A DNA stretch of 64,000 nt from Candidatus Gastranaerophilales bacterium. GTDB taxonomy: Bacteria > Cyanobacteriota > Vampirovibrionia > Gastranaerophilales > Gastranaerophilaceae. Made by a program: the position numbers and the translations under genes. The notes under the pieces are model-generated. The model did not search any database and was not told the origin of the DNA. It saw nothing but the letters and a program-made list of their open reading frames with translations. Where the stretch lies: positions 1 to 64,000 of the forward strand of contig CALUTJ010000016.1 in assembly GCA_944323685.1 (NCBI GenBank), written 5' to 3'. Positions 9,472-55,785 of the stretch are shown piece by piece; position 1 is the stretch's first letter, and every line of letters begins with the position of its first letter.

Positions 9472-9594
9472 ATCTAATCTAGTGTCGCAGTTGCCGACTC
9501 GAGCCTTCGAGCCGTCACTGCTCACCTTTTCAATGTATCACTCCAAAAATTCGTTCACGTCGCTTTGCTCCTTATCACGAATTTTTCTCGGACA
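9472..9594 (-). repeat. Dispersed 179-bp repeat, copy D (internally deleted, 123 bp)
   Basis: Both outer ends match the full copies, but about 56 bp in the middle are missing, exactly the part carrying the GTGAAGCC/GGCTTCAC hairpin. The AAAAATTCGT inverted repeat and the CTCGA/TCGAG module are kept. It lies in the leader of the GH108 gene, between that gene and the LprI-like lipoprotein gene. Confidence 0.95.
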
Positions 9595-12227: not shown

Positions 12228-12758
12228 ATGAAAAAGATTTTAAATTTTAAAAAGATAATAGCCTTTGTGTTGTTGTTTGTTTTTTGCACAAACACTCACT
12301 GTTTTGCTTCTAAATTAAAAATGGGACCGGACGGGCCGTATGTGGATAATTCTTCAAATACGCAGCAATCTTCGGCTCAATCTTCTCAAAACAGCCGTTC
12401 AAAAAGCTATAAAGAATATAAAGAAAACTATCTTCCAAGCGTAAATGAATATGCCGAAAGTGATGTTGATGACATCGATGTAAGCGTGCTTGAAGAAGAC
12501 CCTATGAGTGATTTTGCAAACTATACTTCTACGGAAGAAGAAGATAAAAAAGATTTTGAAGCCGTTCAAAAAGCCGAACAGGAAGAAAAACAACAGGTTC
12601 AAGATGCGGAGAAAAAAGAGAAAAGAAACAAAATTATTCAGGGAATAATAATTGTTCTGCTGATAATAGGCGGCATTGTACTTGCAATCCTGTTTGGCGG
12701 AAGCAGCAGCGATGATGACGATGATGAGGAAGACGATTACTATTATTACTATTATTAG
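12228..12758 (+). CDS. Membrane protein with acidic and hexa-tyrosine tail
   Basis: 176 residues, unrecognised. It has a signal-like N-terminus (about 8-27), a Ser/Gln-rich stretch, a charged helical region rich in Glu/Lys, a C-terminal membrane helix (IIQGIIIVLLIIGGIVLAIL, about 138-157) and then SSSDDDDDEEDD followed by six tyrosines at the very end. A basic patch (EKKEKRNK) precedes the helix, so the positive-inside rule places the acidic Tyr tail outside, in conflict with a cleaved signal peptide. It is last in a three-gene set with the two TonB/TolA-like genes. The stop codon lies one base before dispersed repeat copy A. Confidence 0.6.
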   Translation: MKKILNFKKIIAFVLLFVFCTNTHCFASKLKMGPDGPYVDNSSNTQQSSAQSSQNSRSKSYKEYKENYLPSVNEYAESDVDDIDVSVLEEDPMSDFANYTSTEEEDKKDFEAVQKAEQEEKQQVQDAEKKEKRNKIIQGIIIVLLIIGGIVLAILFGGSSSDDDDDEEDDYYYYYY

Positions 12759-12759
12759 A

Positions 12760-12938
12760 TTGTCCGAGAAAAATTCGTGATAAAAAGCAAAGCGATGTGA
12801 ACGAATTTTTGGAGTGACACATTGTTCACATAGTGAAGCCATTTTTCAGGCTTCACCACAGTTCAGCCGAAAAAGAAGGCAAAGGTGAGCAGTGACGGCT
12901 CTAAGGCTCGAGGCGGCAACTGCGACACCAGATTAGAT
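12760..12938 (+). repeat. Dispersed 179-bp repeat, copy A (full)
   Basis: Full-length copy in rightward orientation starting TTGTCCGAG and ending GATTAGAT. It contains a long-range inverted repeat (arms about AAAAATTCGT/ACGAATTTTT), the perfect GTGAAGCC-loop-GGCTTCAC hairpin and a GCAGT...CTCGA/TCGAG...ACTGC module. It fills the gap between two convergent genes: it begins two bases after the last base of the left gene's TAG and ends at the base before the right gene's stop codon. Confidence 0.97.
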
Positions 12939-28488: not shown

Positions 28489-28827
28489 AATAACCCTCTC
28501 AAAATGATTCGATATAAATTTAAAATGGCATAATAAAATTTTTTGTCAGTAAACAGGCTAAATATTACAAACTCGATACAATTCAAATCATCTAATCTAG
28601 TGTCGCAGTTGCCGACTCGAGCCTTCGAGCCGTCACTGCTCACCTTTGCCTTCTTTTTCGGCTGAACTGTGGTGAAGCCTGAAAAATGGCTTCACTATGT
28701 GAACAATGTGTCACTCCAAAAATTCGTTCACGTCGCGTTGCTCCTTATCACGAATTTTTCTCGGACAAATTAATAGCGGCGATTATTTTTTCATTTAAAC
28801 TCTGTTGCGGCTGAGGTAAATTGTAAT
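28489..28827. other. Spacer with repeat copy C
   Basis: The 339-bp gap between two leftward genes holds the ribosome binding site and probable promoter of the large protease gene and the full repeat copy C. The remaining bases (28770-28827) show nothing further. Confidence 0.5.
28590..28768 (-). repeat. Dispersed 179-bp repeat, copy C (full)
   Basis: Full-length copy in leftward orientation, identical in length to copies A and B with only scattered substitutions. All three inverted-repeat modules are intact. It lies about 100 bp upstream of the protease gene and about 60 bp downstream of the BaiN-like gene. Confidence 0.97.
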
Positions 28828-40008: not shown

Positions 40009-41082
40009 ATGGACATAAAAGTACTTTTAACTAAATTTCATTACAAAAAAAAATACACGCCTGTTGAAGCAATAGGGGCGTCTTTTGTTTATGCCCTGCT
40101 GGCGTTTCCTTCGTTGTGTTATTTAATAACCGTTAAAATCCGTAATTTTTTATACAGAAAAAAAATCTTAAAAGGCTTTAAACCGCTGCTTTATACAATT
40201 TCTGTGGGCAATCTGACAACGGGCGGAACGGGGAAAACTCCGATTACTGCCGAAATAGCAAATTATTTTGTTAAAAAAGGTGAATATCCTGCCATACTGT
40301 CACGCGGTTACGGCGGAGAGCTTTCTAACAAAGAGGTTAATGTAATATCAGACGGCGAAAAAATAAACTATGAGGCCAAACAATCCGGAGATGAACCCTA
40401 CTGGCTTGCGCAGCACTGCAAAGGGGCCGCCGTTTTGACCTGTTCAAACAGAGCAAAAGCAGCGCAGTTTGCCAAAAAAGAACTCCACTGCACAAAACTT
40501 ATTTTAGACGACGGATTCCAGCATCAAAAACTTGAGCGTGATTTAAACATACTGGTAGTGGATAGTGAAAAACAATTTTCAAACGGATGTGTATTGCCTC
40601 TCGGGGCGCTTAGAGAGCCGATGACCGAAATAAAAAGAGCGGATAAAATTATCGTTGTTAACAAGAACTTTAATGACAAAAAAGCCCGTACTTTTGCAAG
40701 ATATTTAAGAAAAAAATACAATAAACCTTCTTTTGTGTGTTCAATGGAACCTGATGAAATATACAACATTGTTACTGGAAAACCTCTTGATGAAACAAAA
40801 GCTGTAATTGCCTTCAGCGCAATAGCACAGCCCGAGCAGTTTTATAAATATTTAAGAAGATTCGACATTATGGAAACCAGGGATTTCCCCGATCATCATA
40901 TCTACAGTGAATCTGATTTGAGAGAGCTCGGGGGTATAAAAAACAAATATGGCGCGGAAGCAATGATTACAACAGAAAAAGACGCTGTAAAATTAAAAGA
41001 TATTGCAACGGATAAAGATGAGATTTATGCGCTTAAGCTCAAACCCTCACTGGATTTGAAAGGGCTGCTTGATGAACAGTAA
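40009..41082 (+). CDS. lpxK: Tetraacyldisaccharide 4'-kinase
   Basis: About 357 residues from the ATG at 40009; an in-frame TTG at 39976 lies inside the transporter gene. The P-loop GNLTTGGTGKTP (near 65) and the downstream SRGYGGE, DEPYWLAQ and LDDGFQHQKLERD motifs are those of LpxK. It phosphorylates the lipid A precursor at the inner membrane. This shows that the organism makes lipid A. The heptosyltransferase-like gene overlaps its end by 11 bases. Confidence 0.95.
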   Translation: MDIKVLLTKFHYKKKYTPVEAIGASFVYALLAFPSLCYLITVKIRNFLYRKKILKGFKPLLYTISVGNLTTGGTGKTPITAEIANYFVKKGEYPAILSRGYGGELSNKEVNVISDGEKINYEAKQSGDEPYWLAQHCKGAAVLTCSNRAKAAQFAKKELHCTKLILDDGFQHQKLERDLNILVVDSEKQFSNGCVLPLGALREPMTEIKRADKIIVVNKNFNDKKARTFARYLRKKYNKPSFVCSMEPDEIYNIVTGKPLDETKAVIAFSAIAQPEQFYKYLRRFDIMETRDFPDHHIYSESDLRELGGIKNKYGAEAMITTEKDAVKLKDIATDKDEIYALKLKPSLDLKGLLDEQ

Positions 41083-42151
41083 CAATAAAAAAATAAAAAT
41101 TCTTGTTATGCGTTACCGTTTTATAGGTGATACGCTGCTTACGGTGCCGTTTTTAAGAAATTTAAGATACGCTTATCCCGAGGCGCAAATTGATATGCTG
41201 GTTGCGCCCGTATCTGGTGAAATTATTGAAAAATGCCCCTATGTTGATAATTTTATTTACTTTGATACAACAAAAAAACACCGTTACGAAAATAAAGAAG
41301 GTCAGAAAAAGAAAACTTTTTGGACATATGTAAAACTGCTGCGCGAACAAAAATATGACAAAGCTTATGTGCTCAAACGTTCTTTTTCCAGCGCTTTTCT
41401 TGCTTTTGCAGCAGGCATAAAAGAGAGAATAGGGTTTGATACTGAAGGCAGAGGCTTTTTGCTTACAAAAAGAGTTAAGTATGAAGAAAACCGTCACGAG
41501 ATAGACTGTTTTTTAGATGTTTTAAAAGCTGACGGAATTGAAGTTAAAAACAATTATCTTGAAAACCGGATTGATGAAGAGGAATCCGCTCAAATGCGCG
41601 AGTTTTTAAACAAAAGCATTGCACCGGAGAATCAGCAATTGAAAAAAGTCATAGTACACGCGACAAGCGGCAACCGCAAAAAGGAATGGGATAAACAAAA
41701 ATGGGCGCAGGTTGTAACATGGCTTGCTAATGAAAAAAATGCGCAGGTACTTTTTAACGGGACAAAAAACGATTCTCAAACATATGAAGAAATAATGTCT
41801 TATGTAAGAGAAGACTTAAAAGTGCAGCCGCTAAACCTCTGCGGCAATTTCAACCTGCGGCAGACTCTGGCTTTTACAAGTGAGTGTGATTTAATAGTCG
41901 GCTGTGACAGCGGAAATTTACATATAGCAGCTTCTGTCGGAGTACCGGTTGTTGCAATATTCGGGCCGATGAACCCTGTCAAATGGAAACCGGCAACAGA
42001 AAAATCGATTGTTGTAAAAACCGATTTACCCTGTCAGCCCTGCGGACTAAAAAAGGGGCATAAATGCGGCAGAGATTATCAGTGTTTGAGAGATATTAGT
42101 GTTGATACGGTTAAATCAGCAATAAATAATTTGTCCGAGAAAAATTCGTGA
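41072..42151 (+). CDS. Glycosyltransferase family 9 (heptosyltransferase-like)
   Basis: About 359 residues from the ATG at 41072, overlapping lpxK. N-terminal ILVMRYRFIGDTLLTVPFLR and C-terminal CDLIVGCDSGNLHIAASVGVPVVAIFGPMNPVKW are typical of GT9 enzymes, which add heptose or related sugars to the LPS core. Near the end, CQPCGLKKGHKCGRDYQCL adds a cysteine cluster common in this family. The last six residues (LSEKNS) and the stop come from dispersed repeat copy B, so the original C-terminus was altered. Confidence 0.9.
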   Translation: MNSNNKKIKILVMRYRFIGDTLLTVPFLRNLRYAYPEAQIDMLVAPVSGEIIEKCPYVDNFIYFDTTKKHRYENKEGQKKKTFWTYVKLLREQKYDKAYVLKRSFSSAFLAFAAGIKERIGFDTEGRGFLLTKRVKYEENRHEIDCFLDVLKADGIEVKNNYLENRIDEEESAQMREFLNKSIAPENQQLKKVIVHATSGNRKKEWDKQKWAQVVTWLANEKNAQVLFNGTKNDSQTYEEIMSYVREDLKVQPLNLCGNFNLRQTLAFTSECDLIVGCDSGNLHIAASVGVPVVAIFGPMNPVKWKPATEKSIVVKTDLPCQPCGLKKGHKCGRDYQCLRDISVDTVKSAINNLSEKNS

Positions 42152-42309
42152 TAAGGAGCAAGGCGACGTGAACGAATTTTTGGAGTGTCCCATTGTTCAC
42201 ATAGTGAAGCCATTTTTCAGGCTTCACCACAGTTCAGCCGAAAAAGAAGGCAAAGGTGAGCAGTGACGGCTCGAAGGCTCGAGGCGGCAACTGCGACACT
42301 AGATTAGAT
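42131..42309 (+). repeat. Dispersed 179-bp repeat, copy B (full)
   Basis: Full-length rightward copy. Its first 21 bases are read as the final codons and stop of the upstream GT9 gene. All three inverted-repeat modules are intact. The rest of the gap to the next gene (42310-42441) is AT-rich with no clear signal. Confidence 0.97.
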
Positions 42310-55649: not shown

Positions 55650-55785
55650 ATCTAATCTAGTGTCGCAGTTGCCGCCTCGAGCCTTCGAGCCGTCACTGCT
55701 CACCTTTGCCTTCTTTTTCGGCTGAACTGTGGTGAAGCCTGAAAAATGGCTTCACTATGTGAACAATGTGTCACTCCAAAAATTC
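55650..55785 (-). repeat. Dispersed 179-bp repeat, copy E (truncated, 136 bp)
   Basis: Starts like the full leftward copies but breaks off after CCAAAAATTC, losing the outer arm of the AAAAATTCGT inverted repeat and the TTGTCCGAG end. The other two modules are intact. It lies in the divergent gap between the HAD gene and prfA. Confidence 0.95.

Follow-up and report, generated by a model that had tools for sequence, protein, structure and literature searches.

Bacteria commonly carry small palindromic repeats in high copy number, and to our knowledge several families of them have no known moving enzyme, with clean empty sites being hard to find. The small dispersed repeats of Nostoc, an account of which is attributed to Elhai et al. 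in 2008, reportedly include very small hairpin repeats nested in one another. Members of the IS200/IS605 family carry subterminal hairpins, have no terminal inverted repeats, produce no target duplication, insert 3' of a short motif and show strand asymmetry (PMC6006769). REPs, REPINs and BIMEs, which are linked to RAYT proteins, are high-copy intergenic hairpins that are apparently mobile (PMC3116915, PMC3733652), although no dedicated transposase is known for the CGTC REPs (PMC3733652). The pneumococcal BOX is modular, with constant ends, optional middle modules and a predicted RNA fold; it is present at 125 copies in one genome, and terminal inverted repeats and target duplications have been reported for it (PMC3049150).

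Here we analyze a repeat found in a stretch of 64,000 nucleotides (the window) from the draft genome of Candidatus Gastranaerophilales bacterium (2.31 Mb, 44 contigs). By description, it resembles the Nostoc repeats, which have nested hairpins and come from the same phylum as the host. With IS200/IS605 it shares subterminal hairpins on one strand, the lack of terminal inverted repeats, seamless joints, and a motif at one flank with a related motif at the other end. It differs in that most carriers lack a Y1 transposase and TnpB is nearly absent, in that its motif is six bases long and loose with no 4-base Watson-Crick guide found, and in that about 137 copies exist without an autonomous partner. 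Like the REP, REPIN and BIME sequences it forms high-copy intergenic hairpins and is apparently mobile, but it is larger, has two unlike hairpins plus modules, and has no GTAG or CGTC tag at the hairpin foot; in addition, the RAYTs of this genus have REPs of their own. The best structural analogue is the pneumococcal BOX, which the element matches in its modularity, constant ends, optional middle modules, predicted RNA fold and high copy number, but not in terminal inverted repeats or target duplications. A limited search of open papers found no description of the element family. Small modular repeats are a known kind; what sets this element apart is the combination of seamless insertion, no recognizable enzyme and swappable hairpins.

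Results

Copies in the Window and Anatomy of the Element

An earlier note on this DNA reported five copies in the window. All five are present, with ends shifted by about one base. The full copies are real, but their exact length is 178 bp, the 179 bp given previously including one flanking base. The strand assigned to each copy is that of the folding 'R' strand (TGTCCGAG...GATTAGAT), which was chosen as reference because the folding evidence sits on that strand. The copies, and the parts of copy A, are as follows.

9472..9594, minus strand: copy D, the 123-bp base form, which has no middle module; covariance-model match at 9472-9594
12755..12760, plus strand: TTAGAT, the target motif abutting the 5' end of copy A (R strand; flank consensus WTARWT)
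12761..12938, plus strand: copy A, 178-bp form consisting of the base element plus the middle module, R strand on the plus strand
12769..12810, plus strand: hairpin A of copy A, near the 5' end, with a covarying stem of AAAAATTCGT (12769-12778) and ACGAATTTTT (12801-12810)
12826..12880 (approximate ends), plus strand: optional middle module M2 of copy A, absent from copy D
12838..12847 and 12869..12880, plus strand: covarying M2 stem of copy A, GCCATTTTTC with GAAAAAGAAGGC
12889..12923, plus strand: hairpin B of copy A, GCAGT (12889-12893) with ACTGC (12919-12923), tip variable
12923..12938, plus strand: invariant 3' end of copy A, CGACACYAGATTAGAT; its final hexamer is similar to the target motif
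28590..28767, minus strand: copy B, 178-bp form
42132..42309, plus strand: copy C, 178-bp form; the upstream glycosyltransferase ORF ends inside it
55650..55785, minus strand: copy E, 136 bp, missing the R-strand 5' end through into hairpin A

On the R strand the base form (123 bp in copy D, about 110–127 bp overall) runs in the order 5'-TGTCCGAG, hairpin A, GAGTG, TTGAAAAGGTGAG, hairpin B, CGACACTAGATTAGAT-3', and the ends of the strand read 5'-TGTCCGAG ... CACTAGATTAGAT-3'. The long form contains an extra middle hairpin module of 55–56 bp between the same two anchors as the base form. No terminal inverted repeats were found in the element. As stated before, the element is GC-richer than its surroundings (0.46–0.48, compared to 0.30–0.37 for the flanks and 0.36 for the window). 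Genes neighboring the copies in the window are unrelated, encoding an M41-like protease, GH108, a phosphatase, an EamA transporter, an HI0933-like protein and GT9. Copy A starts 2 nt past the TAG stop of the ORF at 12228-12758. The description of the element as always lying outside genes is close to the mark, since it is overwhelmingly intergenic, but does not hold strictly: a glycosyltransferase family 9 ORF (41069-42151) enters copy C by 20 bases at its 3' end and ends on the element's TGA, copy C thereby supplying the last codons and the stop. No terminator-like site was found around copy B, and a terminator role was rejected on this basis.

The Repeat Family and Its Distribution

A search for the left-end pattern, allowing up to 3 mismatches, gave 137 matches genome-wide compared to 0 for a reversed-pattern control, and the 40 scored full-length matches in the host genome were 95–100% identical; the repeat is therefore not a product of chance. 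The full genome, searched for further copies, thus yielded about 137 rather than none, confirming the initial observation and revealing a family larger than first noted. Among 77 copies examined in the host genome, 52 were of the long form and 18 of the base form.

Of the 22 further species in the genus, a single one gave no DNA-level match. Copy number among species ranges from one or none up to about 137; G012, which belongs to the genus, has no more than one copy. Repeat-bearing relatives with names are almost all 'Candidatus Gastranaerophilales bacterium' MAGs. Applied across the order, the covariance model detected the element in 52 of 241 genomes and 11 of 50 genera, nearly all of one family, with two weak matches falling in other families; diverged versions occur in relatives from about eight genera of one family. 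A class-wide sample contained the element in 39 of 289 genomes, every one in the same family. The statement that no known family matches also stands: no match to a known IS was found, no Rfam family scored above its gathering cut-off, and collections of phages, plasmids and viruses gave no match at the sensitivity used, for which reason a phage or plasmid origin was rejected.

Empty Sites and the Target of Insertion

Clean empty sites were found by comparison of the sister genomes G006 and G016, which have 92–98% DNA identity over syntenic stretches. Of the sites for which both flanks could be matched, six carried the element in one genome and not in the other, three in each direction, and seven were scored as shared, although one shared call (L273) is a loose pattern match unlike the element in sequence, so that the truly shared sites number at least six. 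Joining the two flanks reproduced the empty allele with zero indels in all six polymorphic cases, the ends of the element being exact, and insertion is therefore seamless, with neither target duplication nor deletion. The hexamers at the 5' flank and at the 3' end clearly differ at four of the six polymorphic sites, indicating that the resemblance between flank and end is not a disguised duplication. The earlier note had considered a mobile non-autonomous element, and the mobile part of that suggestion is borne out by the clean empty sites. Judged from the aligned sequences, the element is mobile, and the six polymorphic sites would represent gains or precise losses. For copy B, synteny with more distant species was too poor for empty sites to be read.

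The 5' flank of the R strand has the consensus WTARWT over 77 copies, with the sequence beyond it near background. Position −4 carries 1.59 bits, with A in 94% of copies, and A is found at −4 in all six polymorphic sites. The 3' end of the element, TTAGA[T/A], is nearly invariant at the positions that match the flank motif. Exactly two bases separate the element from a TAA or TAG stop in 10 of 76 host-genome copies, and never from a TGA stop; insertion just past TAA/TAG follows from the TAR that the target motif contains, together with selection against gene disruption. The element contains no Watson-Crick complement of at least 4 bases to TTAGAT that could act as a guide; known guides use non-canonical pairs. 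At L213:17200-18120 of G006 and in the matching stretch of G016, another, longer structured repeat family (CAGACTC...GAGTCTG and TTCATTTCTTTCTCTTTT...AAAAGAGAAAGAAA) has repeatedly been used as a landing site.

The R strand was co-directional with both neighboring genes rather than opposite to both at a ratio of 28:11 in the host genome (p=0.009) and 28:16 in other genomes. In other genomes, 72 of 106 copies had a positive GC skew on the R strand, and the regional GC skew gave 24:12; in the host genome the count was 39 of 76 copies, which is no bias. The evidence for a replication-strand bias is mixed. Because some of the copies in other genomes are orthologous, the strand-bias p-values are optimistic.

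Covariation of the Stems

The check for covariation that had been proposed was also performed, and the two subterminal stems covary very strongly. In an alignment of 95 distinct sequences that was fitted to the covariance model, 95.9% of cells over 19 pairs were standard pairs and two-sided changes were found in 14 of the 19; an unfitted MAFFT alignment agreed, with two-sided changes in 9 of 19 pairs. None of 500 shuffles matched the observed covariation, and slid-stem controls reached at most 0.062, compared to 0.325 for the real stems. Hairpin A exhibited two-sided changes in 9 of its 10 pairs, and its various stems include AAAAATTCGT/ACGAATTTTT, AAAATTTTGC/GCAAAATTTT and CAAAATTTTA/TAAAATTTTG, each of them perfect. 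In the stem of the middle module, all three tested pairs covary (24 distinct copies). The middle hairpin described earlier, GTGAAGCC/GGCTTCAC, exists but is particular to the version in this genome, and the stem that covaries is a different one, pairing G[C/A]C..TTTT[T/G]C with G[A/C]AAAA..G[G/T]C. Conserved unpaired GATAAG lies opposite GTGAR and AAAAGGTGAG.

Mismatches within the stems of the R strand were G.T in 21 cases and A.C in 7 (p=0.013, the counts not being independent), and this excess suggests that the R strand is the strand that folds. With respect to the structured RNA also put forward in the earlier note, these data indicate that the fold matters, but covariation in a hairpin-ended mobile element is not by itself proof of a functional RNA.

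Gain and Exchange of Modules

Copy D had been interpreted as having lost the middle hairpin and copy E as having lost the outer pair, from which it was concluded that loss is modular. Our analysis indicates instead that copy D is the base form, which is common in sister species, that copies A–C carry an added module, and that copy E is a truncation at one end; rather than modular loss, there is gain and swapping of modules. At one orthologous site (L205 compared to L262), the copy in G006 is of the base form and that in G016 also bears the tip hairpin, the two being otherwise identical, and from this difference in module content at the same site it follows that modules are gained or swapped in place. 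Additional modules in relatives comprise a hairpin within the tip of hairpin A and a block of about 70 bases preceding hairpin A. Modules M2 and M4 also occur alone; both the middle module and the tip hairpin were found independently of the element, and the tip hairpin was in addition lodged at the tip of the middle module and at those of other hairpin repeats. A copy in G003 is a mosaic, one half being 78% and the other 97% identical to the host-genome consensus.

A small hairpin module, CTCTC-stem-GGCAGAGTG, was observed alone and also within the hairpin tips of a number of unrelated repeats (L083:4695, L085:6104, L104:5203, L251:1199 and L265:4816). This module may be a mobile element of its own that targets hairpin tips.

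Search for a Mobilizing Enzyme

Y1 transposase (PF01797) was not found in most high-copy genomes, among them G006, G016, G018, G222, G131, G218, G128 and G195. The host genome has one intact RAYT-like gene. The RAYT genes that are present lie between their own GTAGG...CCTAC REPs, which are distinct from the element; the loci (L239, L242-L245, L248, L251, L060 and L061) have these flanks or GGTGGGC...GCCCACC, the latter flanking two RAYT pseudogene copies of the host genome. The RAYT genes with their flanking palindromes are a separate REP system. The element was absent from the seven RAYT loci of other genomes, and RAYT was rejected as the mobilizer, since most carriers have no RAYT and the RAYTs that exist come with REPs of their own. 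At L239, a direct tandem repeat with GATTAGGAACCCC units lies 3' of the RAYT gene.

TnpB (PF07282) turned up in a single genome among the 23 of the genus, and the idea of a TnpB guide RNA was rejected for this reason. No RVT_1 match was obtained in the copy-rich genomes G000, G017, G018 and G009; reverse transcriptases are patchy and do not track the element, and those at L331, L332 and L336 in relatives look retron-like and are not associated with it. A search for Y2 transposases gave no match in carriers, but none in control genomes either. In approximately 2.3 Mb of loci, we found no autonomous long form in which the ends enclose a gene. MAGs lose plasmids and repeats, so it is possible that the enzyme is encoded on an unbinned replicon.

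Discussion

The reading that we favor, with somewhat better than even confidence, is that the element is non-autonomous, ends in hairpins, is built with interchangeable hairpin modules and is moved by a trans-acting enzyme in the form of a folded single strand. The R strand would fold into two subterminal hairpins, and the trans-acting enzyme would recognize both on single-stranded DNA, making one cut past the TTAGAT at the 3' end of the element and another past the matching WTARWT of the 5' flank. Rejoining of the strand 3' of another WTARWT-like site would then give seamless joints without target duplication. Extra modules, at fixed internal positions, are exchanged from copy to copy, probably through recombination or through the insertion of hairpins with a mobility of their own. 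The seamless joints, the one-sided motif echoed at the other end, the unlike hairpins on one strand and some strand bias are consistent with the logic of HUH Y1 transposition. We claim this logic of single-strand transposition, not membership, because Y1 is lacking in most carriers and the RAYTs have REPs of their own. The single-stranded intermediate, along with the type of nuclease and the source of the enzyme, is what we infer. A more tentative and rather doubtful proposal is that of a new class of seamless single-strand hairpin elements without a Y1, Y2, TnpB or RT partner, in which the enzyme would be host-derived or novel and mobile modules would insert at hairpin tips.

The strong covariation, the R-strand preference for G.T, the conserved unpaired motifs and the moderate bias to co-directional placement with genes are also what would be expected if the R strand were a functional RNA with a host role (a 5'-UTR switch, a regulator or an mRNA-stability element) whose copies spread because they are useful. 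This explanation is unlikely, given that the window neighbors are unrelated, that one third of co-directional sites carry the opposite orientation, that sister genomes differ in their copies, with empty sites, that no Rfam family matches, and that one member of the genus (G012) has at most one copy. The polymorphic sites, the unrelated neighbors and the range in copy number from one or none to about 137 fit a selfish element better than a host-useful RNA. RNA-like covariation and sense bias might also arise from RNA-mediated spread, the R-strand RNA being inserted and then copied by a reverse transcriptase, but four copy-rich genomes gave no RVT_1 match, the reverse transcriptases found elsewhere look retron-like, and antisense copies are common, so that we regard such spread as very unlikely.

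A folded-strand substrate, seamless joints and a short motif common to target and element end could point to a strand-selective recombinase (integron-integrase-like or another tyrosine recombinase) integrating the folded strand at TTARAT-like sites; the target, however, is loose and genome-wide and the consensus has no evident attC-type R/L boxes, making this improbable. The presence of an intact RAYT-like gene in the host, and the fact that REPs are likewise high-copy with hairpins, raise the question of a REP/BIME-type repeat moved by the resident RAYT, to which we assign quite a low probability: the idea is largely refuted by the different GTAGG...CCTAC palindromes that flank the RAYTs and by the absence of PF01797 from most high-copy genomes, and the element lacks a GTAG tag. 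We find it hardly credible that the element is a remnant of an IS200/IS605 element and supplies TnpB with RNA in trans, since TnpB is confined to 1 of the 23 genus genomes, despite the TAM-like 5' flank and structured 3' end. Small size, high copy number and hairpins are shared with ordinary MITEs of DDE transposases, but an element that lacks terminal inverted repeats and showed target duplication at none of six sites has a negligible chance of being one, and a DDE-type MITE was rejected on these two grounds.

With the ends, target, empty sites and fold of the element all defined here, the enzyme can be sought in a concrete way. In the 2.3-Mb genome of an abundant, little-studied gut lineage, the element accounts for as many as about 140 additional folded structures.
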